This document shows positions 1 through 16,283 of a stretch of DNA of 64,000 nt, piece by piece. Origin of the DNA: Blastococcus sp. CCUG 61487 (GTDB lineage Bacteria > Actinomycetota > Actinomycetes > Mycobacteriales > Geodermatophilaceae); the NCBI RefSeq assembly GCF_005222955.1, contig NZ_LWUA01000112.1, forward strand, positions 1 to 64,000, written 5' to 3'. Both the position numbers and the translations under genes were made by a program. The stretch's first letter is position 1. Every line of letters starts with the position of its first letter. The notes under the pieces were generated by a model, which saw nothing but the letters and a program-made list of their open reading frames with translations, made no database searches and was not told the origin of the DNA.

Positions 1-16
1 TCGGTAAGCCCCATTA

Positions 17-35
17 GTCGTGTCAGGGACACGAC
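17..35. promoter_or_regulatory. Perfect 8-bp inverted repeat upstream of the methylase
   Basis: GTCGTGTC and GACACGAC flank the 3-nt spacer AGG, forming a perfect palindrome about 105 bp before the methylase start. It could be a dimeric repressor operator or a small hairpin ending a gene beyond the window edge. No T-tract follows, so an operator is slightly favoured. The binding protein is unknown. Confidence 0.4.
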
Positions 36-141
36 GACCCGTCCCGGCCCGCGAACCGGTAGGCAGTCGCCACCATCGGGCCCGATCGGAGACTCGGCGT
101 TTCGTAGCCACCGCGCGCGCTACGAAAGGCAGGCTGCCGAC

Positions 142-798
142 GTGCCGCGACGACGTACCTGCCTGGCCTGCAAGCGCCCCCTGGCTCACCCCGACACCGG
201 CCGGCCCCGCACGTACTGCTCACTGAGCTGCCGACAACGGCTGTACCGCAAGCGCCGCAAGCAACAGCAGCGCGAGGAGGCGAGCCTGCTGGCTCAGCTG
301 TGGGCCACCCCTGTCGCGCTACGCGCGCTGGTCTGGGCCGCGTTCCCGCACATCACCCTCGACGTCGCCGCCACCCGGGACACCGCGCTGACCGAGCTCT
401 TCATCGGGCCCGACCAGACCGACCCTCGTCTTCGGGACGCCTTGAACCCGGAGGTGGACTGGGCCGAGCTGGCCGCCGGCGGAGCCTGCTGGATGAACTG
501 CCCGTACCGGCGCGATCTGCTGCCGCGGTTCCTCGCCAAGGCGGTGGCCACCACCGCACACTGCGACGTGATCGGCCTGATTCCCTGCAAGCCGACCGAG
601 CGCTGGTGGATTACGTGGGTCCGAGACGCCGGCGCTCGCTGGGAGGCCATCCCCGGCCGGGTGGCCTTCGACCATCCCGACGGGACACCCGGCCGGTCCG
701 CTCCCATGGGTGTCGCGCTCGTGCACTGGCCGGCGCGGATCGGCGAGCTCCCTCCAGCTGGTGAGACGCGGCTGCTCGGCGTCGCGACCGACCGGTAG
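142..798 (+). CDS. Phage-type DNA N6-adenine methyltransferase-like protein with zinc-ribbon head
   Basis: The 218-residue protein starts at GTG after a purine-rich stretch (GAAAGGCAGG). Residues 7-30 hold CxxC and CSLSC pairs followed by a basic tract, as in a treble-clef or ribbon DNA-binding finger. The rest follows the phage Dam layout: WATP near 54, LDVAAT at 73-78 (SAM-site strand) and a catalytic tetrapeptide at 119-122. It ends with the W/R-rich, GRVAF-containing tail of that family. The tetrapeptide reads NCPY instead of the usual NPPY/DPPY, so activity is uncertain. It would methylate adenine in DNA, either as a phage-borne modification or as protection for the element. No restriction enzyme is adjacent. 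Family assignment is by remembered pattern, not a search. Confidence 0.7.
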   Translation: MPRRRTCLACKRPLAHPDTGRPRTYCSLSCRQRLYRKRRKQQQREEASLLAQLWATPVALRALVWAAFPHITLDVAATRDTALTELFIGPDQTDPRLRDALNPEVDWAELAAGGACWMNCPYRRDLLPRFLAKAVATTAHCDVIGLIPCKPTERWWITWVRDAGARWEAIPGRVAFDHPDGTPGRSAPMGVALVHWPARIGELPPAGETRLLGVATDR

Positions 799-947
799 AC
801 GGCCGGCGCCGCCCTCACCGCGGCCGGGGACTCACTCGTTGTCGTGAACCGGCCGCCTGCCGCTCAAGGTCGACCGCGGCCCGGCCGATGCAGTCCGTGC
901 GGTGATGAACCGCCGCCCCGCAAGGGGCCGCGCCCGCTCGGGCGCCG

Positions 948-982
948 GGGCCCTGGGCCGTCCTTGAGACGGCCCAGGGCCC
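948..982. terminator. 15-bp perfect hairpin between convergent genes
   Basis: Two perfectly complementary 15-nt arms (948-962 and 968-982) flank the loop CTTGA, and a pyrimidine-rich TTCTCCTT tail follows on the plus strand. It lies between the ends of the methylase (+) and the small HTH-like gene (-), so it probably terminates both. The rest of 799-1022 shows no convincing gene. Confidence 0.75.
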
Positions 983-1022
983 TTCTCCTTCGAGGCGCTC
1001 GCCGGGCGGCACCGGCCGACGG

Positions 1023-1340
1023 TCACCAGCCGTAGACGGCACGCAGGAGCGCGGCCATAACGGTCTCGCCCATGAAGCGCTCCCCGGCCAGGCACCGCGT
1101 CCACACCGTCTGCGAGACGCCGAACGCCCGGGCGGTGCGCCGACCGGCGCCGTGCTCCCGGACGTTCCGGTAGAGGACGACGAGCTCGTGCTGGATTCGG
1201 GCGACGTTCGCCGAGACCGCGTCGCCGCCGGCCGGCACCCGGCACGGTGCCTCGGCGACGAGACCGAAGCCGAGCGGGATGTAGTCGCGCGGGGTCAGCC
1301 GCCGGCGGCGGTCGAGGTGGTTGGCACCGGGTCGGTTCAT
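1023..1340 (-). CDS. Small HTH-like protein, probable regulator of the divergent operon
   Basis: This 105-residue basic protein has its ATG at 1340. Residues about 67-100 (ARAFGVSQTVWTRCLAGER) resemble a helix-turn-helix in which GVSQTVW would be the turn and recognition helix. I do not recognise the family. It is transcribed divergently from the E2-E1 operon, and a 13-bp inverted repeat lies in the shared 177-bp promoter region. That is the usual layout for a repressor controlling itself and its neighbour. Function is inferred from position and the weak HTH only. Confidence 0.5.
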   Translation of the reverse strand: MNRPGANHLDRRRRLTPRDYIPLGFGLVAEAPCRVPAGGDAVSANVARIQHELVVLYRNVREHGAGRRTARAFGVSQTVWTRCLAGERFMGETVMAALLRAVYGW

Positions 1341-1401
1341 GGCTGGCAGAGGTGCCGGCCCCCGGCTGACATGGCATTCGGCTAGTCACCCGGACGGGTT
1401 G

Positions 1402-1431
1402 GATGTTGCCCGGCGATGGCCGGGCAACATC
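1402..1431. promoter_or_regulatory. 13-bp inverted repeat in divergent promoter region
   Basis: GATGTTGCCCGGC and its exact complement GCCGGGCAACATC flank a 4-nt spacer, midway between the HTH-like gene and the first gene of the E2-E1 operon. Perfect symmetry and position suggest an operator for a dimeric regulator. It could also form a 5' hairpin in either leader transcript. Confidence 0.5.
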
Positions 1432-1517
1432 AGTGATCTTGATGCGCCTCTCGCGCGCGCGGGCTGCGATCGGGTTCCGCCGCTGACCACAGCGGCCGAC
1501 CTGAGAGGACCGGCGCA

Positions 1518-1889
1518 GTGACCGAGGAGAACCACAAGCCGCAGGCCCAGGGCCCCGGCAACCATGAGACGGCGGCAATGCCGGAGGGCGTCGGCACGCC
1601 CGAGTCCGCCGCGGCCAGTGGCGAGGACCACCACGAGAGCGCCGCGGCACCGCCGTCATCGAGCACGACCGAGGGCGAACCCATCGCACCCTCGGCGCCG
1701 CCGGCACCGGTCGCCCCGCAGCCTTCGGCCACCTCCCGCGAGCCCGGCCAGCGGCGCATCACCCGACACACCACCACCTCAACCACGCACACGGAGACGA
1801 CAACCGACGAGACGGTGGTGGAAACGGTCGCGATCGCCCCGCCGGTGTACGCCGCACCCTCCGGCGAGCACCCGCGGCCAGTGGGCTGA
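1518..1889 (+). CDS. Disordered acidic protein ending in glycine; candidate modifier or substrate of the E2-E1 enzyme
   Basis: The 123-residue protein starts at GTG behind a GAGAGGA site. Residues 1-75 are rich in Pro, Glu, Ala, Ser and Gly and look disordered. Residues about 78-105 are Thr-rich with alternating strand-like character (TSTTHTETTTDETVVETVAI). The last residues are HPRPVG, so the chain ends in a free glycine, the residue that E1 enzymes adenylate. Its stop overlaps the start of the E2-E1 fusion (TGATG), implying coupled translation. There is no recognisable beta-grasp fold, so a ubiquitin-like role would be of the disordered Pup kind, or it may be a tagged target. That role is inference. 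It is unlike any family I know. Confidence 0.6.
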   Translation: MTEENHKPQAQGPGNHETAAMPEGVGTPESAAASGEDHHESAAAPPSSSTTEGEPIAPSAPPAPVAPQPSATSREPGQRRITRHTTTSTTHTETTTDETVVETVAIAPPVYAAPSGEHPRPVG

Positions 1890-3781
1890 TGAGCGCCTCG
1901 ACGACGGCCAGCACCACCGCGGCCTGGTGGCTGGCCTATCCGGACGTGTGGGCGGCGGAGCAGGCCGCGCTCGGCGCGGCCGACGCCACCTGGTCTCAGG
2001 AGGACACGCACGACCCCGTGGAGCCCGACGATGGACCTGGCGCTGTGCCACTGCTGGTGCTGAACGTCGACTGGCCGCACCCCGCGGCACAGCCCGGGGA
2101 CCCGGCCACCCTTCGGCTGAGAGTCGACTTCCCGGCCGCGTACCCGTGGTTCGCCCCGCAGGTCGTGCTGCCCGAACCGCTGCCCGGGCTCTCCCGGCAC
2201 CGCCACCCGGTCACCGGCCAGCTGTGTCTGCTGGCCGACCCCGAAGACTGGCAGGCCGGCAGTACCCTCGCCGGGCTGCTGACCGGTCAGCTGCCGCGGC
2301 TGCTGGCTGCCGGCCGCGACACCGGTGCCAGGCCGGCGACCCTGGCGCTGGAAGCCGGCGCCGAAGCGGCATGGACCCGGTCGCACCTGTCGCTGGGGGC
2401 GCTCCTGGTCGACACCAACTGCGTGCCGGCACCCGAGGTGCCCGGCGGCTGGGCGGACCTGATCACCGTGAGCAGGACGATCGCTCCGGTCTCCGCGCTG
2501 ATCACGCTTCGAGGCCCGGAGCAGCAGGTGCTGTGGGAGAGCCAGGCCTTCACGCGGCACAACGCCCGCCGCATCAGCTGGGTCCGCCTGCCCGACACCC
2601 CCGCCGACGGCGTCGACGGAGCCGTGCTGTGGGCCCGGGCGACCGAGCAGCTGGCCGAGCTCGGCGGCGAGGACGAGCCGAACGCCGTCGCGGTGCTGGT
2701 GGACAGCGAGGGCCCTGGCCGGCGGCCGTGCGAGGAGTGGTTGCTGCTCACCCGCGGCGTGCCCAAGCCGCGCAGCCTGGAGGCGCTGCTTGAGCCTGCC
2801 GAACCGCCCACCCAGGACGTGTCCCCTGCTGAGGTCGGTGGTGGGCAGCTGTCCCTGTTCGACGGAGACGAGCCTGCGATGCCAGCCCACGAGGTGCCGG
2901 CGGGCACACCGCCGCGCTCGCCCCAGGTACGGGTGCGGCGCAGCTACGCCATCGACCGGGACGCTCTCACCGCCCGGCTGCCCGGTGACCCCGCCCGCCT
3001 CGCCCAGGCCACGGCGACAGTCGTCGGGGTCGGCGCCCTCGGCGGGCCCGTGGCCCTCGAGCTGGCCCGCGCCGGCGTCGGCGGACTACACCTCATCGAC
3101 GGCGACCTGCACGACCCCGCCACCGGCGCCAGGCAACTGCTGACGATCCGCGACGCCGGCAGCCCCAAGGCACTCGCCGTCGCACTCTCCCTCATCGACG
3201 TGAACCCCCACCTCCAGCTCACGACGGGGCTCCGCCCCCTGGGCGCCGACGACGGCCGCGAGCTGCCCGGGCTGACGGCCAGCACCCTGGTGATCGACTG
3301 CACCGCCAACCCCGCCGCCAACCGCTACCTCGCCGCCCACCTGGGCGTCACCGGGACCCCGCTGCTGATCGCCTCGGCAACCGCCGGCGCCTGGGGAGGT
3401 GCCATCACGGCGCTGCCCGCCGCCGGCGGCGGCTGCTGGGAGTGCCTGCAGCTGCATCGCGGCGCCCGCACAGTGCCGTGGCCGCCCGCCCGCCCCGACG
3501 CCCAGCTCACCCCCGTCGGCTGCTCCCACCCGACCTACGAAGGCGCCTGGACCGACAGCCTCGGCCACGTCGCCCTGCAGACCGCCCGCACCGCCATAGC
3601 GCTGCTCACCGCACCCGCCGGCGCGACAGCGGCGGCGTCCGGGAACCCCTACGGGGACCTGCAGGTGGTCACCCTCTACCGGCGCGGCCGCCCGGTGCAT
3701 CCCCGCTGGCAGACACGCCAACTGACAGTGCACCCGGCCTGTCCCCTCCATCAGGCTCGTCGCCGCCGGGGATCGCAGTGA
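1889..3781 (+). CDS. E2-E1 fusion (ubiquitin-conjugating plus ThiF/E1-type), Cap2-like
   Basis: This 630-residue enzyme has the domain order of the CBASS protein Cap2. Residues 55-135 form an E2 domain: YPWFAPQVV strand, His104/His106, then GQLCLL with putative catalytic Cys113, and a Trp eight residues later. A linker of about 200 residues follows. From about 375 there is a ThiF-like Rossmann domain with GVGALGG (380-386), a DGD acidic motif near 405, GSPK and an IDCTANP motif. CWEC (Zn-type) comes next, then GCSHPTY with candidate E1 catalytic Cys545. As I recall, Enterobacter Cap2 uses C109 and C548, so both the spacing and the motifs agree. It should adenylate a C-terminal Gly and pass it via E1 and E2 thioesters to a target. 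No cyclase, JAB peptidase or effector is adjacent. Confidence 0.88.
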   Translation: MSASTTASTTAAWWLAYPDVWAAEQAALGAADATWSQEDTHDPVEPDDGPGAVPLLVLNVDWPHPAAQPGDPATLRLRVDFPAAYPWFAPQVVLPEPLPGLSRHRHPVTGQLCLLADPEDWQAGSTLAGLLTGQLPRLLAAGRDTGARPATLALEAGAEAAWTRSHLSLGALLVDTNCVPAPEVPGGWADLITVSRTIAPVSALITLRGPEQQVLWESQAFTRHNARRISWVRLPDTPADGVDGAVLWARATEQLAELGGEDEPNAVAVLVDSEGPGRRPCEEWLLLTRGVPKPRSLEALLEPAEPPTQDVSPAEVGGGQLSLFDGDEPAMPAHEVPAGTPPRSPQVRVRRSYAIDRDALTARLPGDPARLAQATATVVGVGALGGPVALELARAGVGGLHLIDGDLHDPATGARQLLTIRDAGSPKALAVALSLIDVNPHLQLTTGLRPLGADDGRELPGLTASTLVIDCTANPAANRYLAAHLGVTGTPLLIASATAGAWGGAITALPAAGGGCWECLQLHRGARTVPWPPARPDAQLTPVGCSHPTYEGAWTDSLGHVALQTARTAIALLTAPAGATAAASGNPYGDLQVVTLYRRGRPVHPRWQTRQLTVHPACPLHQARRRRGSQ

Positions 3782-4146
3782 CCGACCGGGCGGCGGAGTT
3801 GTGTGACGTCCTGCAGCTCTGCCTGACCTTCGCCACCTCCGGGTCCCCGGTGCAGCAGGCAGCGGTCGTCCGTGACGGACGGGCCGCGCTCGACGAGCTC
3901 CGGCAGCTGCTCGCCTCCCGGCAGTGGCCGCGGGTCGTCCGCGGCGGCCTGCCGCCCGGCCCGTACTTCCTGCAACTCGACGACCGGGCACTCACCGGCC
4001 TGCTCGCTGACACGCAGGACGCGTACGGCGAGCTCCAGGAACGCCTGCACACCGCCGAGGCACGACTGCGCGACTGCCAGGACCGCTTGCAGTCCGCTCT
4101 GTCCGCTTCCTCCGACGACACCGACCGGCCCGAGGAGACCCCGTGA
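3778..4146 (+). CDS. Helical protein of the E2-E1 operon, unrecognised
   Basis: The 122-residue protein begins at a GTG overlapping the fusion's stop (GTGA), so translation is probably coupled. Residues 1-45 look helical (DRAAELCDVLQLCL), a Gly/Pro segment around 55-65 follows, and residues about 78-112 have heptad-like spacing (LLADTQDAYGELQERLHTAE) typical of a short coiled coil. The tail is acidic. No catalytic motif is visible. It may be a partner or adaptor of the conjugating enzyme, judged from operon position alone. Confidence 0.6.
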   Translation: MTDRAAELCDVLQLCLTFATSGSPVQQAAVVRDGRAALDELRQLLASRQWPRVVRGGLPPGPYFLQLDDRALTGLLADTQDAYGELQERLHTAEARLRDCQDRLQSALSASSDDTDRPEETP

Positions 4147-4511
4147 CCGAGCCACCCCACGACCAGGCCGGACACGAACGGCCGGACGTCAACGACAACG
4201 AAGCGGGAGAGCCGCAGGTGGTCATCCGGCTCCGCATCCCCGGCCCGGTGCCACCGAAGGCAGCCCCGCCCGGTGCGACCACCATGCGAGTGGTGACCGA
4301 GGGCGCCGTCTACGAGTTCCACGCCGGATCGATGACGGCAGTACGGCTGCGCCGCGACGGCAGTCACCTCCGCCGGGACGGTGAACCCCTGGCCCTGCTC
4401 AGCTGGCCGGCACCGGTCGTCGGGCGCGGCATGGAGCTGCAGCTGCTTGTGCGGGAGGACGGCATCCCCACGACCAGGTTCACCAGCACCGTGAGGCGGG
4501 TCGAGCGTTGA
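4143..4511 (+). CDS. Beta-rich protein of the E2-E1 operon, unrecognised
   Basis: The 122-residue protein starts at GTG and overlaps the previous stop (GTGA). The first 25 residues are polar and acidic. The rest alternates hydrophobic strands and turns (VVIRLRIPG, MRVVTEGAVYEF, ALLSWPAP, MELQLLVRED), suggesting a small beta barrel or sandwich. It ends in VRRVER with no terminal glycine, so it is not an obvious ubiquitin-like modifier unless processed. A divergent beta-grasp fold cannot be excluded by eye. The tight coupling says it works with the E2-E1 enzyme. Confidence 0.6.
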   Translation: MTEPPHDQAGHERPDVNDNEAGEPQVVIRLRIPGPVPPKAAPPGATTMRVVTEGAVYEFHAGSMTAVRLRRDGSHLRRDGEPLALLSWPAPVVGRGMELQLLVREDGIPTTRFTSTVRRVER

Positions 4512-4539
4512 GCAGGCACCCGACCTGCCCGCGGTCGCC

Positions 4540-5088
4540 GTGATCAACGAACCCGAGGCGCGCCCGCCCGCCGCGGAGCACCGCTGGCGCTGGCAGAGGC
4601 ACACCGAAGGTGCGATCGAGTGGGTCGCACCTGCTCCGGGACAGCTGGGTGTCGACGGCGGCACGGTCACCGTGAGTCCGCCCAGCGCCCATCCGGGCCG
4701 CTGCCCGTCATGCGGACGGGACACAGGCTTCCGCGTCGCGTTCCTCGTGCTGCCCGTGTGCTCACCGTTCGGCCCGGTCGGTGAGGGCTGCTCACGCGCC
4801 CATGCGACCGAGACCATCGCAGCGAGGTGGTCGAGCTGGGCAGACGTCGTCGCCGCGCACACCGAAGCGGCCGCCAAGCTCCGCGATCAGCCGGAGGTGT
4901 CGGAGTGGGACGAGCGGACCGCTGCCTACCTCGAGCACCGCGGTCAGTACGCCGCCTTCCTGGCCAGCGCGCCCACTGACGCCGCACGCCGCCTCGCCCT
5001 TCGACTGTGGAGCGGTGACCCGCCCCGCCTCAGCGTCGCCGACACCGCCACGATCGTCGCCGGCATCCTGGCCGAACCACCCGGATAG
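4540..5088 (+). CDS. Cys-containing protein of the E2-E1 operon, unrecognised
   Basis: The 182-residue protein is 28 nt after the previous stop, with a GTG start; no in-frame ATG or GTG lies closer to the preceding gene. Residues 56-85 contain CPSCGRD, PVCSPF and GCSRAH, a spacing that could bind zinc. A helical C-terminal half (residues 95-180, Ala/Asp/Glu-rich) follows. A zinc finger at the end of a ubiquitin-like operon invites comparison with E3 or deconjugase partners, but no RING or JAB signature is present. It is the last gene of the operon, followed by a hairpin. Confidence 0.6.
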   Translation: MINEPEARPPAAEHRWRWQRHTEGAIEWVAPAPGQLGVDGGTVTVSPPSAHPGRCPSCGRDTGFRVAFLVLPVCSPFGPVGEGCSRAHATETIAARWSSWADVVAAHTEAAAKLRDQPEVSEWDERTAAYLEHRGQYAAFLASAPTDAARRLALRLWSGDPPRLSVADTATIVAGILAEPPG

Positions 5089-5119
5089 GACGCGCAGTTC
5101 AGCGGCGGGACGCGGCACG

Positions 5120-5140
5120 GAACAGGGCTGATGCCTGTTC
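5120..5140. terminator. Hairpin between E2-E1 operon and transposase-like gene
   Basis: GAACAGG and CCTGTTC flank a 7-nt loop in the 66-bp gap between two convergent transcription units. It has no strong T-run and may act in both directions. Confidence 0.5.
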
Positions 5141-5154
5141 TGGACAGTTGCCGA

Positions 5155-6645
5155 TCAGGCGGAGTGCAGCGACCTGCCCCGACTGCTCGCGGGCGTGGCC
5201 ACGCCTACCTGTGCCGCCCGGTGAGCCACGACGGCGTTGGACAGCAACGCGAAGCACACCGCGTCGAGCAGCTGACGCCGCCACCCCAAGCTCATCGCCC
5301 TGTTCACCAGCAGCGACCGCTTGAACGCGCTGTTGAACGCCTCGGAGTCGTTGCGGATCCCGTAGAGCCGGGCGAAGTCCTCCTCGCCCTCGGCGATCAG
5401 CCGCACGTTCTCGGCGCGGCGGGCATCGGGGTCGCCGGGCTCACCGTGCGGGGTGATCCAGGCGTCGAAGTCCCCCCGGGCGCACGGCACCACGAAGGCG
5501 GCGGAGAAGTGGTAGTTGCCGTTGCCGCGGCGGGGACGCTTCACCTGCCGGCGGGTGAGCCGGTGTGCCACGACCGGATCGCCGGTGTCGCCAAGCGTGA
5601 CCTCCACGATCGCGCCGTCGACGGCGGCGAGGGCGTGGGTGCACGCGCCGTCGTCGGTGTCGTGCTCCCAGCTGCCCAGCGGGTAGCTCTTGACGGCCTT
5701 GAGCCCTCCACGCTCGGCCTTCTCCGCGTCGCTGAGCGGTGCCGCGGCGACCTTGTTGACCACGACCAGCCCGTGCCGGGTCATCAGCTTCTCCAGGTGC
5801 ACGCCGCGCAGCGCGCCGTCGTAGACCACGGCCTGCACGCCGGCGCCGGCGACGCGGTGCACATCACCGATGAGCAGGACCGCGGCCTCGGCCTCCCGAC
5901 CGGGCCGCTCGGCCCGCCCTACCGCGAGCACGACCCGCTGAAAGGCGGCATCGCCGCGGGCGTAGACGACGACCAGGTTGGTGCCGTGCACCGGGCCGGT
6001 GTGCCCGTGCCACTCGGCACTGTCGGGGTCGTAGCGGCGGGTCGGTGTGTCCACCAACTCGCCGGTGCCCTTGTCGCGGTAGCGGCGCACGCGCTCCCCC
6101 GTCTCCGGGTCCTCGATCCACACCACGGGCGGCGGCTTGTACAGCGAGCGGACGACCGTGCCGTCGCCGTAGACCGTTCGGGAGCGGGCCGGATGGTTCA
6201 GCGAACCCGGGCCCTTCGGATCCAGCAGCCCCAACGAGCGGGCCTGCGCCACCGAGCCGGCGATGAACAGCCGGTGCATCTCGGCCAGCGCCACATCGGT
6301 GGTGAGGTGGGTGTTGCGGGCGTACTGCCAGGCGGCCCAGGTCGGCGCCCGGTCCCCCGGCGGCGCCCACAGCTCGTCGGGCAGTTCGTCCCGCATGGCG
6401 GCAGCCTCGGCCTGCATCAGCGGCCACAGGCCGCCGGTGCGCAGCTCGGCGTCCAGCTTCGCGCCCGAACGGGTCATCCGGGCCAACACGCCGAAGGCGA
6501 TCAGCAGGTAGCCGGGGTACACGGGTCGGCGCCCCACCGGCGGATCCGCCGGAATGAGTGTGCCCAGCTCGTAGATCAGGCGGTGCCGCATGACCGCCCG
6601 CACCTGCTCCACGGTCGAGGGCACAGCGCTGCGCGGGCGGCTCAT
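5155..6645 (-). CDS. DDE transposase-like protein
   Basis: This 496-residue protein has an RNase H-like arrangement of acidic residues. The first Asp is in VYGDGTVV and the second in VVYDGALRG. A Glu sits in NDSEAFNSAFK, followed by a helical Trp/Arg-rich C-terminus (SLGWRRQLLDAVCFALL), as in IS4/IS1182-like DDE transposases. The ATG overlaps the stop of the upstream recombinase-fold gene (ATGA), so the two are co-translated and probably act together. I see no terminal inverted repeats at 5.1 or 7.9 kb, so mobility as a classical insertion sequence is unproven. Confidence 0.65.
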   Translation of the reverse strand: MSRPRSAVPSTVEQVRAVMRHRLIYELGTLIPADPPVGRRPVYPGYLLIAFGVLARMTRSGAKLDAELRTGGLWPLMQAEAAAMRDELPDELWAPPGDRAPTWAAWQYARNTHLTTDVALAEMHRLFIAGSVAQARSLGLLDPKGPGSLNHPARSRTVYGDGTVVRSLYKPPPVVWIEDPETGERVRRYRDKGTGELVDTPTRRYDPDSAEWHGHTGPVHGTNLVVVYARGDAAFQRVVLAVGRAERPGREAEAAVLLIGDVHRVAGAGVQAVVYDGALRGVHLEKLMTRHGLVVVNKVAAAPLSDAEKAERGGLKAVKSYPLGSWEHDTDDGACTHALAAVDGAIVEVTLGDTGDPVVAHRLTRRQVKRPRRGNGNYHFSAAFVVPCARGDFDAWITPHGEPGDPDARRAENVRLIAEGEEDFARLYGIRNDSEAFNSAFKRSLLVNRAMSLGWRRQLLDAVCFALLSNAVVAHRAAQVGVATPASSRGRSLHSA

Positions 6646-7589
6646 CGCGCCTCCCGCCAGGCCAGCGCGATGTCCTCCGCGGCGGAGTCCAGGCTGCGCG
6701 CCCCCAGCCGCAGGGCCACCTCCTCGACCGGCGCACCGGCATCGAACAGCTCACGGCCCGCCCAGTGGCGCAGCGACGCCGGGCGTACATCCGGCTCCGC
6801 GCTCAACCCGGCCAGGTCCAGCACGGTGCCGAGCGCATTGCAGACGCTCGCCTGCCCGACGTGCCCACCGGGCCTCGCCGCCCCGCGGTAGGCCAGAAGC
6901 GTGTCCGGGGTGGCACCGGCCGCATGCAGTGCGTCCAGGTGACGCACCAGCACTGCCCGGCCCCATGCGGTCAGCTCCCCGGTGCGCGGGTCGTGGCGGC
7001 GGGTACCGGGCAGCTGCACCGCCTCGGGTCGGCGTGGGTGGTCCAGGTCGCGGATCCGCAGCGCGCTGATCTCGCTGGACACAGCGGTGGTCTCCCCCAG
7101 CGCCCAGCAGACCGCCAGCCGCAGCGTCTTCGCTCCCACGCCCATCCGGCTCGACATGCGGCACAGCGCCGCCTCGTCAGCGGTCAGCGGCCGTGCGGCG
7201 AGCACGCCGCGGGGGGGCAGGACCAAGTCCAGCGTGGGATCCCCGTCGTACCAGCCGCGAGATCGCAGCGATCGGTACAGCATCCGCAGACAGGTGCGCC
7301 GGGCGTGCATCGTGGCCAGCTCCGGCGGCAGCCCGGCCCGCGTTGGGGCGTGCACGAACGCCGCGGCGTCCTCTGGCCGTTCCTGCCCGAACCGGTGGAC
7401 ACCGGTGCGTTCCAGTCGGCGCACGTACCGGCCGACCGTCTCGGTGGCACGCAGCATCGTCTGCTCGCTGATTACCCGCTCGTCGCGCCACTGCGCGATC
7501 ACAGCGGCCATCGCGTCGGCCAGCGGTGGCCAGGCTTTCGCCGTGGCCGTCGCCGGCGGGGTGCTCTTGGCGGCTACCCGTCGCCCCAC
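6642..7589 (-). CDS. Tyrosine-recombinase-fold protein lacking catalytic residues
   Basis: The start chosen is GTG at 7589, behind AAGGGAGA at 5-nt spacing, giving 315 residues; an open frame continues upstream to 7736 without a good site. The N-terminal half resembles a SAM-like core-binding domain. The C-terminal half follows the XerC/D pattern: SSEISALRIRDLD where GLRxSEL is usual, and RPASLRHWAGRELFDAG for box II. The box I Arg appears as Val/Ser, the LGH histidine is Ala (LGA), and the nucleophilic Tyr position holds Asp (AAEDIAL). It therefore probably binds DNA without cutting. It is coupled to the DDE protein, suggesting an accessory targeting or end-binding role. Confidence 0.6.
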   Translation of the reverse strand: MGRRVAAKSTPPATATAKAWPPLADAMAAVIAQWRDERVISEQTMLRATETVGRYVRRLERTGVHRFGQERPEDAAAFVHAPTRAGLPPELATMHARRTCLRMLYRSLRSRGWYDGDPTLDLVLPPRGVLAARPLTADEAALCRMSSRMGVGAKTLRLAVCWALGETTAVSSEISALRIRDLDHPRRPEAVQLPGTRRHDPRTGELTAWGRAVLVRHLDALHAAGATPDTLLAYRGAARPGGHVGQASVCNALGTVLDLAGLSAEPDVRPASLRHWAGRELFDAGAPVEEVALRLGARSLDSAAEDIALAWREAR

Positions 7590-7894
7590 GTCTTCTCCCT
7601 TGGTCGGGTGTGTGACGGGGGCAAGGTGCGGGCGATCGGTGCGGTTGCATTCGCCCGAACGTTCGATGACGGGCGTTCTCCAGGTCGTCGGCGGGTGATT
7701 GCGCAGCAGCCCGGAACCGCGCACAGACCTCCACATCCGGTCTCGCGCCGGTGACCGCCGGCGTCACGCCCGGACCGCCCTCGGGGCGGGCACCTCGCAG
7801 CTCATCCCCATCACGGTGACCGCGGACAACTCCACAGCGAACGACAGGACCCAGCACACACGTGCGGGCGGGACCGCGACGTCGCGCGCCGATG

Positions 7895-8068
7895 GCACCG
7901 AAGGAGGCGATGAGCAGCCATCGGGCGCGGCGGGGACGGGCTCCGGCAGAAAGGAGGTGAACAAGGCCGCAGCCACCCCAGCGACACCGAGTACGCGCCA
8001 AGACGAAGGGCAGCGCAAGGCCGACGTCCCCGGCCGGTGGCACCAAGGAGGTGATCAGCAGCCACCGG
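7895..8068 (+). repeat. Three imperfect repeats built on AAGGAGGTGATC
   Basis: Copies begin at AAGGAGG 7901, 7951 and 8045. Copies one and three share GGCACC, then AAGGAGGYGAT, then AGCAGCCA over about 30 nt; copy two is more divergent. Copy three contains AAGGAGGTGATC, a 12-nt exact complement of the 16S rRNA 3' end. Any start codon sits within 0-2 nt of the motif, too close for normal initiation, and opens only tiny frames such as MSSHR... and MISSHRTT. They could be remnants of gene starts or a leader element. Confidence 0.5.
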
Positions 8069-8142
8069 ACGACGTAGCGGCCACCAGCCGAACATCTTGA
8101 CCGACACACCGTTCGCTCAACTCCTGCGTGAAACTGAAGTGC

Positions 8143-8148
8143 TAACGT
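8143..8148 (+). promoter_or_regulatory. Candidate -10 box (TAACGT) of the XRE-HEXXH operon
   Basis: TAACGT lies 39 nt before the first gene, leaving a leader with a GAGGAGG ribosome site. GTGAAACTGAAGTGC just upstream could be an operator for the XRE protein two genes on. No clear -35 is seen. Confidence 0.35.
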
Positions 8149-8186
8149 GCATCCGCCGAGCAAAGGGCAAGCGATGAGGAGGGCCC

Positions 8187-9032
8187 GTGGGCTCCTACAA
8201 GGCAGGCGAGTGGGCACGGCGGCGCTTCGGCGCAGCGGCCACTGATCTGGGGCAGGCGATCGCCGCCGGCATGCAGGAGGCGCACCACCGGGCACTGCGG
8301 GCTCATCTCGGCGGCGAACTGAGGACCAACGACGCCTACGGCGCGGCCCTGATGGTCACCCAGCACGAGCAACTGATCGCCGCCACAGAGGGTCTGCCGG
8401 GGGTGGTCATCCGCAAGCCCACCGGGGTGGTCAGCCGGTTCCCCTACGTCGTGGTCGAGGACATGGCCGTGGTCTTGATGCCATGGCGGTTCAGCAACAC
8501 ACCCGCGAAGCGCCGGGTCGATGCCCGGATGCCCACGCCGGTGTCCGTCCTGCGCAAGTCCCTCCTCGGCCTGGGCGCCGGCGTGCCGGCGTCGACCCAA
8601 CTGGTGCTCGAGCAGAGCACGCTGGACACCGACGAGCTCGAGGCACAGCTGGCGGAGGAGCAGGAGGTCTCCGCCCAGCTGGCGAGCTTCGGCCGGGTCG
8701 TCACCGTGGCATTCGGCAGCAACCCGACCGACGGCCTCTTCGAACTCGGCTGGGGCGACGCGGAGCTGATCAGCGAGGACACCGGTCACGTCTTCTGGCA
8801 CGCCTGGGAGGCGATGCCGACCGCGGAACCCGGCACCGCCGGACTCGCGGTGCCGACTCCGACGAAGCTGCGGTCCCTCGACCCCGTCGAGGGCTCCCGC
8901 GTGGGCCGCTTCGACGCTGCGCCACTCAACGAGGACCTCGGTCTGACCGCTCGGCCCCGCACCGTCCCGGCCCCGCTGAGCGAGTCGCAGCCGGAGGTGG
9001 AGCAGGCCGGTGACGAGGACGGGCAGTCATGA
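8187..9032 (+). CDS. Unrecognised protein coupled to XRE-HEXXH protein
   Basis: The 281-residue protein has a GTG start 5 nt after GGAGG. Residues 1-50 are helical, followed by mixed alpha/beta sequence (VVIRKPTG, PYVVVEDMAVVLMPWRF) and a Glu-rich helix near 145-165. A strand region (VVTVAFGSN, FELGWGD) follows, with a Pro-rich disordered tail after 225. No catalytic motif is apparent. Its stop overlaps the start of the metallopeptidase gene (ATGA), so it is probably the partner or target of that XRE-ImmA protein, as in toxin-antitoxin-like or stress-switch pairs. The role is inferred. Confidence 0.6.
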   Translation: MGSYKAGEWARRRFGAAATDLGQAIAAGMQEAHHRALRAHLGGELRTNDAYGAALMVTQHEQLIAATEGLPGVVIRKPTGVVSRFPYVVVEDMAVVLMPWRFSNTPAKRRVDARMPTPVSVLRKSLLGLGAGVPASTQLVLEQSTLDTDELEAQLAEEQEVSAQLASFGRVVTVAFGSNPTDGLFELGWGDAELISEDTGHVFWHAWEAMPTAEPGTAGLAVPTPTKLRSLDPVEGSRVGRFDAAPLNEDLGLTARPRTVPAPLSESQPEVEQAGDEDGQS

Positions 9033-10201
9033 AGCCACCCGAGCAGCTGCGCCTGGTCGATCCGCACCCGGCCGGGACAGAGTCCGCTCGTCTGCAGGCC
9101 GTCGCTGACGCCTTCGACCCGGCACGACTGACCCAGGCACGCCGGCTGGCCGGGCTGACCAAACGGGCCGTCGCCGATGCGCTCGGAGTGTCGCCGGCCG
9201 CCGTCGGGCAGTGGGAGACCGGAACCACTCCCCGGCTGGACCACCTCGCGCGGGTCGCCGACGTGCTAGGCGTGTCCCCGGGCTTCCTGGCGGCCGGCCG
9301 GCCCTACGCCCGCCTGGACGCGGCCGCGGCTCACTTCCGCAGTCTGCGGTCCACCCCCGCCGCGCAGCGCGCGAAGGCGATCGCCTTCACCGAGCAGGTG
9401 TGGGAGCTCACCCACGCACTGGAGAAGCGGGTCCAACTGCCCCCCGTGGACCTGCCGGGCTTCTCCGGCGGAGAGGTGGACGCCGGCGCGGTGCCGGCCG
9501 ATCCCGCCGCCGCCGCCCGCCTCCTGCGCGATCACTGGGGGCTGGGTAGGGAACCGATACCGCACCTGGTGCGCACCATGGAAGCCCACGGGCTGATCGT
9601 GACCCTCGTGCCCTTCGCCGGCACGGAGACCGCGAAGGTCGACGCCTTCTCCACCTCCCAACTACCGCGGCCGGTCATCGTGCTCACACCCGACCGAGCC
9701 GACGACGTCTACCGCCACCGCTTCACCGCCGCGCACGAGCTGGGGCATCTGCTGCTGCACGCCGACACCACGCCCGGCGATCCGGTGCAGGAGAAGGAGG
9801 CCGACGCGTTCGCGGCCGAGCTGCTCACCCCCCGCGAGGCAGTGGTGCCGCGGCTGCCCACCCGGATGGACATGCACGCACTCGACGGACTCAGCCGGGA
9901 GTGGGGTGTGGCCGTGGACTCGCTGGTCTACCGCTGCCGCGAGGTCAACGTCATCTCCGACGCCGCCTACCGGCGGGCGTTCCAGCGACTCAACCAGCTC
10001 CGCCAGCTCGGCCTGTTCCGACGGGAGTCGGTCGACGGCTACCCAGGCGAGGTTCCAGTCCTGCTGCGCCGCGCTTTCCAGCTCGCCAAGGAGCACGGCC
10101 TCACCATGCGACAGCTGGCCGACGAACTTCACCTGCCCTTGCCCCGACTGCGGCTGCTACTCGGCGATGACGACCCGCGACCCGAACTCCGGCTCGTCTG
10201 A
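9029..10201 (+). CDS. XRE-family regulator with HEXXH (ImmA/IrrE) metallopeptidase domain
   Basis: The 390-residue protein carries an N-terminal XRE helix-turn-helix (residues 34-82, GVSPAAVGQWETG). A middle linker follows, then a zinc peptidase domain with HELGH at 236-240 and a downstream Glu in QEKEADAFAAELL as third ligand. This is the standard XRE-ImmA/IrrE layout, in which the peptidase cleaves a repressor or antitoxin partner on stress. It overlaps the preceding gene by ATGA and is followed 45 nt later by a TIGR04141-type gene. It may regulate this operon itself. Since no JAB peptidase accompanies the E2-E1 enzyme 4 kb away, a functional link is conceivable but unsupported. Confidence 0.85.
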   Translation: MKPPEQLRLVDPHPAGTESARLQAVADAFDPARLTQARRLAGLTKRAVADALGVSPAAVGQWETGTTPRLDHLARVADVLGVSPGFLAAGRPYARLDAAAAHFRSLRSTPAAQRAKAIAFTEQVWELTHALEKRVQLPPVDLPGFSGGEVDAGAVPADPAAAARLLRDHWGLGREPIPHLVRTMEAHGLIVTLVPFAGTETAKVDAFSTSQLPRPVIVLTPDRADDVYRHRFTAAHELGHLLLHADTTPGDPVQEKEADAFAAELLTPREAVVPRLPTRMDMHALDGLSREWGVAVDSLVYRCREVNVISDAAYRRAFQRLNQLRQLGLFRRESVDGYPGEVPVLLRRAFQLAKEHGLTMRQLADELHLPLPRLRLLLGDDDPRPELRLV

Positions 10202-10245
10202 ATCGCGCCGCTTCCTCCCACACCTTCTACGGACAGGCTGAAACC

Positions 10246-11871
10246 GTGGCCCCCAAGCAGTCCCCGGCAAATCGGACCACCCTGTACCGATTCGAGCACC
10301 TCGTCGCCCTGGAGGACGCCATCCGGGAGAAGTACCGGGAGCAGGACGATTTCACGGCCACCCCGACGAAGGTTGGGGAGCGGGAGGCCCTCCTGTTCAG
10401 CGGCACGATGAAGACGAAGAGCGACAAGGTGCAGTGGGCGAAGCCCCTTCAGGAACTGACCGGCGAAGAGCTCGCGCTGACCAACAAGACGGCCGCGGCG
10501 GTCCTGCTCATCCGGCGAGGTGAGGATGGGGCCTGGGCGCTGACCTACGGGATGGGCTTCCAGCTCCTGGACCACGACAAGATCGACGGCGCCTTCGGCC
10601 AGCGTTTCGCCCTGCGGACGGCCGATCAGGCAGCGCTCAACTCCATCACCCGCAGCACCCTGGACTACCGCGGACGGACCGACCGCCTCACCAGCCCGGG
10701 CGGCGATCACATCCGCGGGTTCGGCGTCGGGGACATCGGCGAGCTGGTTTCCAGGATCGTGGGGCGAGCTGCCATTCCGGAGCTGACCGGCGGCGAGAAG
10801 CCCGTGACCATCCGTGGTGCGGACGCACTCAACATCCCGCTGGGGCGAAAGCCCGATCATCTGCTGGGCGACCTCGACTTGCTCGAGACCATCCTGGACA
10901 AGCCGGCCAGTCCTGGCCTGGAGTCACTGGAACAGCTCGTCGCGATCAAGCACCCGGAGAGCCTGATCGAGGAACTGAACGGCCACCTGAACGCCGCGCT
11001 GGCCGGTGCTGCATCCGACGCCTTGCTGACGACCGCCTGGCCGCACGAGCGCATCAACGACAACGGGATGCCCGACTCCTTCAAGATCAAGGGGAGGGGC
11101 GGCAAGAGCGGCGACGGCGTCCCGACGATCGATGACTTCCGCGTTGTCCTGGAAGACGAGCCCGCCGCGACGAAGCTGGACCGCCTCCGCCGGCTCAAGG
11201 TGCAGCTGTACCGGGACGCGGGTGCTACCGAACCGATGAGCCAGGAGATCCCGGCGGACCGGTGGCTGGCGTTCGAGGTCCACGAGAACCACCGCCGGTT
11301 CGTCTTCCACGACGGGCGCTGGTTCCAGATGGACCAGCAGTACGCCGAGAGGCTGCACGAGCGGGTGCGGCGGATCTTCGACCGCACACCTCCCGTGCAG
11401 CTGCCGACCTGGCCGGAAGGGATGGACGAGGCCGCCTACAACAAGTACGTCGCGGAGGAACTCGGCGGCCGTCTCATGGACAAGGAGATGATCCGGACGC
11501 CGATGCACCCGCGCGGCATCGAGGTCTGCGATGTGCTGCTGCCGCATCAGGTGCTGCTCCACGTCAAGGACGCCGAGAAGTCATCCCTCGCCAGTCATCT
11601 CCTGGCTCAGGCTCTTGTGTCCACCGACGCACTGCTCAACTACGAAGAGGTGCGACGGGAGTTCGTGGATCGCGTCGTTGACAGGGGCGGATCTCCGGCA
11701 GAAGTCCCCACCCGAGGCGGCGCCGTGGTGCTCGGCATGGCAAGGAAAGGGAAGCTGTTCGACAGCGACAGCTTGTTCACCTTCACTCAGGTCACGATGG
11801 TCAGGCTCGTCGAGCTCCTGGAGCGCCAGGGAGTGGATGTGTTCATCGCCCCGATCTTCCGGGACGCGTAG
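10246..11871 (+). CDS. TIGR04141/DUF6119 sporadically distributed defence-island protein
   Basis: The 541-residue protein with a GTG start matches the TIGR04141/DUF6119 pattern. A strand rich in hydrophobics precedes the YGMGFQLLDHDKID turn. The family's FGQRFALRTADQ block and the DRLTSPGGDHIRGFGV segment follow. A long mixed domain comes next, and the C-terminus contains LLPHQVLLHVKDAEKSS. Members appear sporadically near restriction and defence genes, but the biochemical activity is not known to me. It sits at the right end of the island directly after the XRE-HEXXH gene, which suggests one operon. Confidence 0.7.
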   Translation: MAPKQSPANRTTLYRFEHLVALEDAIREKYREQDDFTATPTKVGEREALLFSGTMKTKSDKVQWAKPLQELTGEELALTNKTAAAVLLIRRGEDGAWALTYGMGFQLLDHDKIDGAFGQRFALRTADQAALNSITRSTLDYRGRTDRLTSPGGDHIRGFGVGDIGELVSRIVGRAAIPELTGGEKPVTIRGADALNIPLGRKPDHLLGDLDLLETILDKPASPGLESLEQLVAIKHPESLIEELNGHLNAALAGAASDALLTTAWPHERINDNGMPDSFKIKGRGGKSGDGVPTIDDFRVVLEDEPAATKLDRLRRLKVQLYRDAGATEPMSQEIPADRWLAFEVHENHRRFVFHDGRWFQMDQQYAERLHERVRRIFDRTPPVQLPTWPEGMDEAAYNKYVAEELGGRLMDKEMIRTPMHPRGIEVCDVLLPHQVLLHVKDAEKSSLASHLLAQALVSTDALLNYEEVRREFVDRVVDRGGSPAEVPTRGGAVVLGMARKGKLFDSDSLFTFTQVTMVRLVELLERQGVDVFIAPIFRDA

Positions 11872-11993
11872 GCGGCTCGGCTGGCCGTTCCTGAAGCGGC
11901 GTGCGCGCATTCCACCAAGCACAGCTCAGCGTCCCCGGACGTGGTGAGTGGACCGTTCGCCGACGCCTCGAAAGGGCAGGTAGAAAGGGTTTT

Positions 11994-12023
11994 CTGCATC
12001 CACCAGAGGCCCCGTGGGTGCAG
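11994..12023. terminator. Hairpin after the TIGR04141-type gene
   Basis: CTGCATCCAC and GTGGGTGCAG pair over 10 bp (one T-G) around a 10-nt loop, 122 bp beyond the stop. It is a plausible terminator for the accessory operon. The rest of 11,872-12,123 shows no gene, and the accessory/chromosome boundary probably lies in it. Confidence 0.4.
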
Positions 12024-12123
12024 AGGATTCCCAGACCACTCACCCAGAACCGCGAGCTCTGTGGCCGTCTGCGGCCCGGTGCGAGGCTACCGCCCCCTCG
12101 ACCGCCTCCCCGGCGCCGATCGG

Positions 12124-14774: not shown

Positions 14775-16283
14775 GTGAGCGGGGCGAGCGTCCAGGAGAG
14801 CGAGCCGGACGTCGAGGCGACGTCGCCGTGGCGCCGGCGCGGCCGGGTCGCCGGGCTCTGGCTCGCGCGCATCGGGCTGGCGCTGGTCGGCGCGCTCGTC
14901 GCGGTGCTGCTCTTCGCCCGGATCTCCGCCCCCATCGGGCCGTTCGACGCCTCGCTCGCCATCCGGCCCGGATCCGGCGGCGCCGAGGTCGCCGTCCCGC
15001 CGCTGGGCTCGCTCGCCGTCGACGTCTTCGACGGTCCGCTGCGCCTGGACGTCCAGCTGCAGCGCGTCGACCAGGTCCGCGCCCAGGAGCTGGCGAACGA
15101 CCCCGTGCGCCTGGCCGGGGTGGTCGACCGCGTGACCGAGGACCTGCAGGGCGCCGTCGTGAAGCTGGTCGTGATCACCGTGCTGGTGGCGCTCGCCGGC
15201 GCGGCCCTGGTCTCGTGGCTGGTGATCCGCCGGCGCCGGGAGCCGCTCATCGCGGCCGGGCTGACCGGCATCCTGCTGCTCGGCATCGGCGGAGTCGGCG
15301 CCGCCACCTGGCGCCCGGAGGCCATGGCGACCCCTACCTACACGGGCCTGCTGGTGAACGCGAACAGCCTCATCGGCAACGCGCAGGACATCGCGGCCCG
15401 CTTCGACGCCTACCGCGCGTCGCTGGAGGATCTCGTCGCGAACGTCGGCTCGCTGTACAGCACGCTCTCGGCCTTGCCCGCGCCCGGCATCGCGGACCGG
15501 ACCGTCACCCTGCTGCACGTCTCCGACATCCACCTCAACCCCGCGGGCTTCGACCTGGTCCAGCAGGTGGTGAGCCAGTTCCAGGTCGACGGCGTGCTGG
15601 ACACCGGCGACATCACCGACTGGGGCAGCTCCCCGGAGAACACGCTGATCTCCTCCGTCGGCACCCTCGACGTGCCCTATGTGTTCATCCGCGGCAACCA
15701 CGACTCGGCCGCCACCGCCGAGCGGATCGCCGCCCAGCCCAACACGACGGTGCTGGACGACTCGGCCACCGAGATCGGCGGCCTCACCATCGTCGGCGCG
15801 CGCGATCCGCGGTTCACCCCGGACAAGTCGACAGGGGACGACGACGCGGGCCCCGAGGTGCTCGTCGCGTCGGGCGAGCGGCTGGCGGAGTTCGTGGAGA
15901 CGCTGGACGTGCTCCCCGACGTGGCGCTCGTCCACGACCCGAAGCAGGCACCGCCGCTGGACGGCGAGGTACCGCTGATCCTGGCCGGGCACACGCACAA
16001 CCGGGCCGTCTCCGAGCTCGACGGCGGCACGCTGCTCATGGTCCAGGGCTCCACCGGCGGTGCGGGCCTGCGCGCGCTGCAGGGCGAGTACCCCGAGCCG
16101 CTGACCTGCACCGTCCTCTACTTCGACGCCGAGACCGGAGACCTCCGGGCCTACGACGAGATCACCCTGGGCGGCCTCGGGGAGGCCGAGGTGATGATCG
16201 AGCGGATCGTCGTGCCGCCCGACGCGGACGAGGACGAGGACGGCGGCGAGCAGGACGGGGACGAGGACGACGGGGGCTCGTGA
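14775..16283 (+). CDS. Membrane-anchored calcineurin-like metallophosphoesterase
   Basis: The protein has about 502 residues. Membrane segments lie near residues 30-55 and 135-190. From about 240 there is a complete calcineurin-type site: HVSDIHL, DTGDITDWG, RGNHDS, LVHDP and AGHTHN. It ends in a highly acidic tail (Asp/Glu/Gly-rich, last 25 residues). It hydrolyses an unknown phosphoester; topology suggests the active site is on one face of the membrane. Start choice rests on the leaderless -10 box. The gene appears monocistronic. Confidence 0.85.
   Translation: MSGASVQESEPDVEATSPWRRRGRVAGLWLARIGLALVGALVAVLLFARISAPIGPFDASLAIRPGSGGAEVAVPPLGSLAVDVFDGPLRLDVQLQRVDQVRAQELANDPVRLAGVVDRVTEDLQGAVVKLVVITVLVALAGAALVSWLVIRRRREPLIAAGLTGILLLGIGGVGAATWRPEAMATPTYTGLLVNANSLIGNAQDIAARFDAYRASLEDLVANVGSLYSTLSALPAPGIADRTVTLLHVSDIHLNPAGFDLVQQVVSQFQVDGVLDTGDITDWGSSPENTLISSVGTLDVPYVFIRGNHDSAATAERIAAQPNTTVLDDSATEIGGLTIVGARDPRFTPDKSTGDDDAGPEVLVASGERLAEFVETLDVLPDVALVHDPKQAPPLDGEVPLILAGHTHNRAVSELDGGTLLMVQGSTGGAGLRALQGEYPEPLTCTVLYFDAETGDLRAYDEITLGGLGEAEVMIERIVVPPDADEDEDGGEQDGDEDDGGS

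Follow-up and report, generated by a model that had tools for sequence, protein, structure and literature searches.

What does a DNA transposase gain from a recombinase that can no longer cut? In the genome of the actinomycete Blastococcus sp. CCUG 61487, a gene for a DDE transposase-like protein (DDEa) overlaps a gene for a protein with the fold of a tyrosine recombinase (YR; YRa) that lacks its nucleophile. The pair was first noticed in an earlier note on a 64,000-nucleotide stretch of this genome (contig NZ_LWUA01000112.1, positions 1 to 64,000 of the forward strand; here the window, or contig C112), which proposed an unusual mobile or domesticated system. That the system is mobile is borne out by its defined ends with inverted repeats, by target duplications and empty sites, and by a copy that seems to have moved recently. 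The best explanation, with a probability of about 0.7, is that the two genes form the transposition module of a family of cut-and-paste transposons, which insert at the 5′ ends of tRNA genes in a single orientation; the DDE protein would cut and join the DNA, and the dead recombinase would bind DNA and pick the tRNA target. The tRNA-gene targets, and a second, diverged gene pair past the contig end, are beyond what the earlier note could see.

The coupled genes and their products

6642..7589, minus strand: YRa, tyrosine-recombinase-fold protein without the catalytic set, 315 residues, GTG start
5155..6645, minus strand: DDEa, transposase with D161, D276, E435 and a Y(2)R(3)E(6)K signature, Tn5-like predicted fold, 496 residues
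6642..6645, minus strand: ATGA overlap coupling the two genes, YRa first and DDEa second

The DDE protein retains the catalytic triad that had been read from its sequence: D161, D276, and E435 are invariant across the 18 rows of alignment A6, and are present in 16/16 DDEa rows. Among 13 rows of the diverged homolog DDEb, the first D is found in 10, the second D in all 13, and the E in 12, the exceptions coming from one open reading frame (ORF) that starts past the first D and from a single gene, apparently frame-shifted, that is split into two overlapping ORFs. The window protein matches no Pfam family, four DDE proteins gave no match in PHROGs, and single-sequence searches against solved structures found nothing. 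The predicted structure (predicted local distance difference test score (pLDDT) 85, predicted template modelling score 0.84) resembles Tn5 transposase (Z 15.6 over 287 residues, root-mean-square deviation (rmsd) 4.5), with ISCth4 (10.9) and piggyBac (9.4) behind.

The GTG start of YRa is suggested by homologs beginning MARR... or MPRR..., while the longest ORF extends to 7736. The XerC/D-like fold that had been proposed for this partner was recovered by both profile and structure, the YR family profile matching XerD at E = 3e-10 and the predicted structure (mean pLDDT 88) matching XerA in Foldseek at E = 1.6e-9. The model superposes on XerA at Z 18.4, Cre and lambda Int are matched as well, and the match to the regulator SroF (9rd5) is weaker (Z 13.3); Pfam PF00589 gives a sub-threshold match (E = 0.003), and PHROGs assigns "integrase" to 3/4 of the YR proteins tested.

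The catalytic positions were placed by eye on a profile alignment to XerD that stops short of the Tyr, the position of which was set nine residues past the LGH His. The window protein carries V for the box I Arg, A for the LGH His, and D for the Tyr, the three losses reported in the earlier note; A also replaces the HxxR His, and the second Arg is kept. Across 44 aligned rows (33 YRa, the window's included, and 11 second-type YRb, some rows being near-copies), the nucleophile Tyr is absent from all (0/33 YRa, 0/11 YRb), as is the HxxR His (0/44). The box I Arg is found in 7/33 YRa and 0/11 YRb rows, the second Arg in 16/33 and 9/11, and the LGH His in 4/33 and 2/11; the second Arg is missing from the seven YRa rows that keep the box I Arg. 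The note had named homologs with an intact R-H-R-Y set as the sign of merely local decay, and such a set occurs in 0/44 rows. Local decay of an active integrase is ruled out by this family-wide loss, and the loss of the recombinase catalytic set is, as read from the alignment, a family trait.

The two genes also travel together. Named genome contigs were scanned with a profile and one peptide pattern, these scans being centred on Actinomycetota, and gave 28 loci among the matches listed, all in records titled Actinomycetota, one of them under a Bifidobacterium breve bin label. A YR ORF accompanies the DDE ORF at 19 of them, the other nine holding truncated, broken, or contig-edge DDE genes; consistently separate genes, likewise considered in the note, are rejected by this count.

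Ends, target duplications, and tRNA genes

1..12004, no strand: portion of the element inside the window, continued on contig C212 by synteny with genome G020
11987..12004, minus strand: left terminal inverted repeat GGTGGATGCAGAAAACCC (minus-strand reading), 15/18 match to the right end at C212:11218
12005..12012, minus strand: left 8-bp target duplication GGGCCTCT, equal to nucleotides 1-8 of tRNA-Lys(TTT), with the other copy at C212:11219-11226
C212 continuation: DDEb (2-2179), YRb (2363-3571), methyltransferases, and McrBC-like genes, up to tRNA-Lys at C212:11219

Comparison with relatives (genomes, contigs, and loci carry G, C, and L numbers) yielded the shared DNA ends and target duplications that the earlier note had advised looking for. 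At the level of sequence, it shows target duplications, 8-10 bp long, that take in the first nucleotides of the tRNA, as well as inverted-repeat ends and empty sites in relatives. The nearest relative of the window locus is G020, in which the element is complete on a single contig (20,579 bp). The left ends lie at window position 12004 and L047:4015, while the right ends, at C212:11218 and L179:8593, immediately precede tRNA-Lys(TTT); GGGCCTCT, exactly 8 bp, is present at all four junctions. Two relatives, G021 and G009, lack the island: their tRNA-Lys is unoccupied, and the same core gene faces it at a distance of 237 and 212 bp, respectively. The second pair of the window's element, DDEb-YRb, stands at the start of C212, which by synteny with G020 lies beyond window position 1. 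Ends directly beside the first pair (GGGAC near 5107) were considered and dropped, as GGGAC is too common at this G+C content.

Several further features were seen around these junctions. The contig ends at window 1-12 and L052 1-232 both diverge from the G020 sequence, and some insertion therefore probably sits between C112 and C212. Just outside the left duplication, window 12013-12039 holds right-end-like sequence (minus strand, ...GGGAATCCTCTGCACCCACG before GGGCCTCT), which suggests that this tRNA-Lys received an earlier or a tandem insertion. In G007 (L186, about 14784-14882), some 100 bp before tRNA-Lys resemble the right end of the G020 element with no element there, perhaps a remnant of a lost copy.

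Other copies have comparable ends. The insertion in plasmid pMK12478 spans 44,135 bp (139483-144951 plus 1-38666), has the ends GGGACCTGACGAAAA... and ...TTTTAGTCAGGTATCCAAAGACGTCCC with the YR-DDE pair at its right end, and is flanked by the duplication CGTCCCACC, which is 9 bp by end symmetry or 10 bp counting a C shared with the end. The flanks of the pMK12478 and pMAC109a insertions are continuous in related plasmids (L101), giving the empty site. A copy of this mycobacterial plasmid element in G600 is 100% identical over the 9,127 bp compared and appears to have moved recently; its right end directly adjoins tRNA-Arg(CCT), on a contig of 110 kb that is presumably chromosomal, and its left junction, on a separate contig, repeats CCGCCCCCG (9 or 10 bp), equal to tRNA positions -2 to +7, the two contigs being taken as one element by inference. 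The same genome also holds, at L253 (G600:C148), another left end of the mycobacterial element whose flank differs, which suggests a second copy.

At tRNA-Thr(TGT), the G007 and G063 copies share a repeat including GCCGGCGT and a common terminal repeat ATGGGAACAA, with an empty site in G021; the identical stretch in G007 is 20 bp, and the 8-bp duplication there rests on the symmetry of the repeats. The G100 element (5,887 bp) has GGGCCTCT at both ends, which are alike at 14 of the first 18 positions; YR, DDE, and one small ORF were called in it, and the DDE frame is interrupted. In G003, only the left end is present, with the flank GCCGACGT. In L083 (9589-9630), a right end is followed by 8 bp, GCCCCCGT, and then by left-end-like sequence, an apparent case of tandem elements sharing one 8-bp target duplication. 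The mycobacterial end motif, sought in 18 loci, was present in three plasmid loci at 0-1 mismatches, with nothing else below 6; a search of 19 loci for left ends (a 9-nt tRNA start plus GGG) was convincing in L063 only, and an 8-nt search did not find the ends of the G055 element (L048).

The link to tRNA genes was counted over 50 unique DDEa rows that extend at least 300 bp downstream, of which 39 were classed as single-pair and 11 as two-pair; among the 39 is the window itself (L192), misclassed because of its short locus. A same-strand tRNA starts 100-300 bp past the DDE stop in 24/39 single-pair rows (25 within 1 kb), compared with 0.486% of random positions in the same loci. The target tRNAs include Arg, Lys, Thr, Phe, Ala, and Gly; for L206, the tRNA named is the next one (Met), since its ORF enters the adjacent tRNA-Thr. 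TTTTC motifs recur at the right ends. With a 32-nt right-end matrix trained on 19 ends, sites with scores of 22-31 were obtained in L077 (where the site precedes a tRNA-Arg-like start), L083, L058, L060, and L095, and nothing scored above 5 in L089, L094, L053, L070-L073, or L048. TANNNT occurs 45-75 bp before the tRNA in 19/26 right ends, one row not being the element's own tRNA, whereas 2,000 single-base shuffles gave 3.6 on average and 11 at most; as a consensus match, this fits an outward promoter near the right end.

Assigning cutting and targeting

From the intact triad, the duplications, and the predicted fold, it follows that the DDE protein would be the catalyst, binding the end repeats, excising the element, and joining it at staggered target positions. 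The dead recombinase, which would be unable to cut, is probably the tRNA-gene selector, because it is the only other constant gene seen, has a DNA-binding fold without the residues to cut, and belongs to a fold class that often reads tRNA genes. It would bind DNA and recognise the tRNA gene as the target, a role analogous to that of TnsD/TniQ in Tn7-like elements. The duplication would rebuild the tRNA after insertion, and the outward -10-like box near the right end may drive the rebuilt gene.

Several results weigh against this explanation. The reading of tRNA genes is allotted to the YR or the DDE protein by inference; target identity clusters weakly on the trees of both proteins, and the 16-row tree cannot separate them. 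No tRNA lies 100-300 bp downstream in 15/39 single-pair rows (L080 has one at 560 bp, and L192 is the window itself), and none of the 11 two-pair rows has a tRNA directly after DDEa. A matrix built from 16 ends misses both ends of the window's element, the best chance site in the 64-kb window scoring 17.0, and two-pair elements would therefore have other ends. Beyond the copies described above, left ends with a duplication were recognised by the 8-nt search in only 2/16 loci; this search added L091 at 7/8. The tRNA-Lys site of G022 is occupied by about 4.1 kb of other DNA and is not empty. ARAGORN detects no tRNA gene at the pMK12478 site, and this plasmid insertion shows that non-tRNA targets are possible. 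The Tn5 likeness of the DDE model is a second-look result, since Foldseek alone gave no match to the PDB at E ≤ 0.001.

The main rival keeps the same transposon and exchanges the roles, with the dead recombinase binding the transposon ends or its own promoter, as an architectural protein or repressor, and the DDE protein reading the tRNA gene. MrpR provides a precedent: this protein of the tyrosine-recombinase fold no longer works as a recombinase and instead represses by binding DNA (PMC10516654). Its structure (YopR/MrpR, 8bj6) gives a weak match to the YR model (Z 10.6, rmsd 15.7). The repeated TTTTC motifs at the right ends could be protein sites, and target specificity varies among IS4-family elements (PMC2266710). 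However, "tRNA" has 0 occurrences in the available text of that account, which there makes no mention of tRNA-gene homing, and in the mycobacterial modules a separate helix-turn-helix (HTH) gene divergent to the pair is the likelier repressor. An end-binding or regulatory role for the recombinase is possible, at perhaps a third of the weight given to target selection.

It is very improbable that the pair is passive cargo of tRNA islands placed by another, active integrase. Integrase-type elements commonly integrate at tRNA genes (PMC6563490), and the 20-bp repeat in G007 is longer than 8-10 bp. That repeat is explicable as 8 bp plus similarity between flank and end, however, and elsewhere the direct repeats are short duplications adjoining inverted repeats; the DDE stop lies near a tRNA in most single-pair rows, and the 32-nt end motif is common to elements. 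Insertion by an unrelated integrase was rejected, as no other recombinase was recognised among the genes scanned in the G020, G100, and pMK12478 elements, the plasmid gene table being incomplete. Least probable of all is a domesticated locus, such as a defence or genome-rearrangement module that has lost mobility, to which the defence-type neighbours (E1-E2, RmrA-type, McrBC) and the interrupted DDE genes of some copies (e.g., G100, L091) would be suited, and against which stand the different cargo on one backbone in the window's genome (G000) and G020, the 9.1-kb identity between plasmid copies and one at a tRNA gene of another genome, and the duplications and empty sites.

Cargo, distribution, and relation to known systems

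142..798, plus strand: Dam-like N6-adenine methyltransferase, common to the G000 and G020 copies
1518..5088, plus strand: E1-E2 (ThiF) ubiquitin-like conjugation gene (1889-3781) and small neighbours
8187..11871, plus strand: gene at 8187-9032; RmrA-type HTH and ImmA/IrrE protein (9029-10201); TIGR04141/DUF6119 protein (10246-11871)

The G000 and G020 copies thus share a backbone and differ in cargo, window 1018-4536 having no counterpart in the G020 copy. The cargo on C212 comprises methyltransferases and a McrBC-like pair; an AAA ATPase on that contig (best AAA_5, weaker AAA_22) adjoins an McrBC protein. Window 7889-7924 and 8034-8068 form inverted repeats (CCGATGGC...GCCATCGG and CCGGTGGC...GCCACCGG) with co-varying arms; both hold an AAGGAGG Shine-Dalgarno-like core, and a similar unit is found in G020 (L047, about 8103-8153). 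In G007 (L051 13981-14668), many tandem units of about 17 bp lie upstream of YRa; in G003, they lie at the contig start.

Within these limited scans, the transposon family is seen in Actinomycetota, plasmids, and one viral contig. Six plasmid records and one IMG/VR contig are among the matches listed, and phage records gave no match in the scan; the DDE profile matches 27/396 phylum genomes and 13/397 order genomes, the window's own genome included. A typical element at tRNA-Arg is found in L078, a locus labelled as a metagenome-assembled genome of Bifidobacterium breve, the bin label of which may be wrong.

Several loci hold the second pair in the gene order DDEb-YRb. The layout is compact (DDEb-YRb-YRa-DDEa) in L071, L072, and L073, divergent in L070 and L048, and YRa-DDEa-cargo-DDEb-YRb in L047 and L049-L051. 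Such two-pair elements may encode a heteromeric machine, perhaps with one pair per end. In mycobacterial modules (L096 4151-6811, L098 4116-6808), the HTH (XRE) gene divergent from YR adjoins a variable gene trio, and a relative of this HTH gene, about 50% identical, lies near the S. mirabilis plasmid copy (L095 4173-4496). Beside the Streptomyces plasmid copy, L095 11309-15574 holds three genes, two annotated as tyrosine recombinases and one as a DUF6262 protein, a set presumably Tn554-like.

The closest systems seen are Tn7-like elements with TnsD/TniQ (e.g., relatives of the type I-B2 and I-D CRISPR-associated transposons), likewise DDE transposons homing to tRNA genes, in which TnsD targets these genes (PMC11406308). 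The present family differs in its Tn5-like DDE protein and dead tyrosine recombinase, and in an insertion point at most 3 nt away from the first nucleotide of the tRNA. TnsB chains match the catalytic core of the DDE model only (Z about 7), and TniQ had no match among the proteins scanned, a set that did not include every gene. Target duplications are 5 bp in Tn7-like elements, in contrast to 8-10 bp here.

The duplication size accords with the IS4 family (IS50/Tn5, IS10/Tn10), which is characterised by a Y(2)R(3)E(6)K motif, D(60-110)D(100-150)E spacing, and duplications of about one helical turn, 8-13 bp (PMC2266710); those found here are 8 bp, and 9 (possibly 10) bp in the mycobacterial copies. 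The predicted fold, the DDE triad, and Y428-R431-E435-K442 in the window protein are further likenesses, the Lys of this signature not being kept in other members (e.g., L098). The spacings of 114 residues (D161-D276) and 158 residues (D276-E435), in contrast, are slightly outside the IS4 range, and the GGG/GGT ends, tRNA homing, linked YR gene (in two- or four-gene modules), and large cargo (mapped elements of 5.9-44 kb) set the family apart from short IS4 elements with a single ORF.

Active tyrosine recombinases share the fold of the partner protein and not its catalytic residues, since the R-H-R-H-Y set is unmatched. MrpR/YopR and SroF, the latter known here from a structure-list title alone, share the recombinase fold; MrpR is a prophage repressor, whereas the YR genes accompany DDE genes and transposon ends. 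In integrase-type genomic islands, the tRNA gene is likewise rebuilt at one end; these islands mostly use the 3′ part of the gene (PMC6563490), in contrast to the 5′ end and short target duplication seen here. The family, in which a targeted DDE transposon has a partner protein otherwise unseen in that role, is apparently undescribed: searches of open-licence PMC literature gave no description of such a system among the matches listed, which does not prove absence. That a retired tyrosine recombinase acts as the address reader for an unrelated DDE transposase, directing it to the first tRNA nucleotides, is slightly favoured over its opposite; in a fuller version, two dead recombinases and two intact DDE proteins would make up a single heteromeric machine, a homing system with an origin independent of Tn7/TniQ.

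If this explanation is true, the family would represent another protein-based route to tRNA genes, in addition to active integrases and to TnsD/TniQ or guide RNA, and hints at how a recombinase may lose its chemistry yet keep target recognition in a new partnership. The Tn5-like enzyme with a possible separate specificity subunit would also offer a compact insertion system for study. With their defence-type cargo and the seemingly recent mycobacterial move, these elements may help explain the formation of islands in Actinomycetota.

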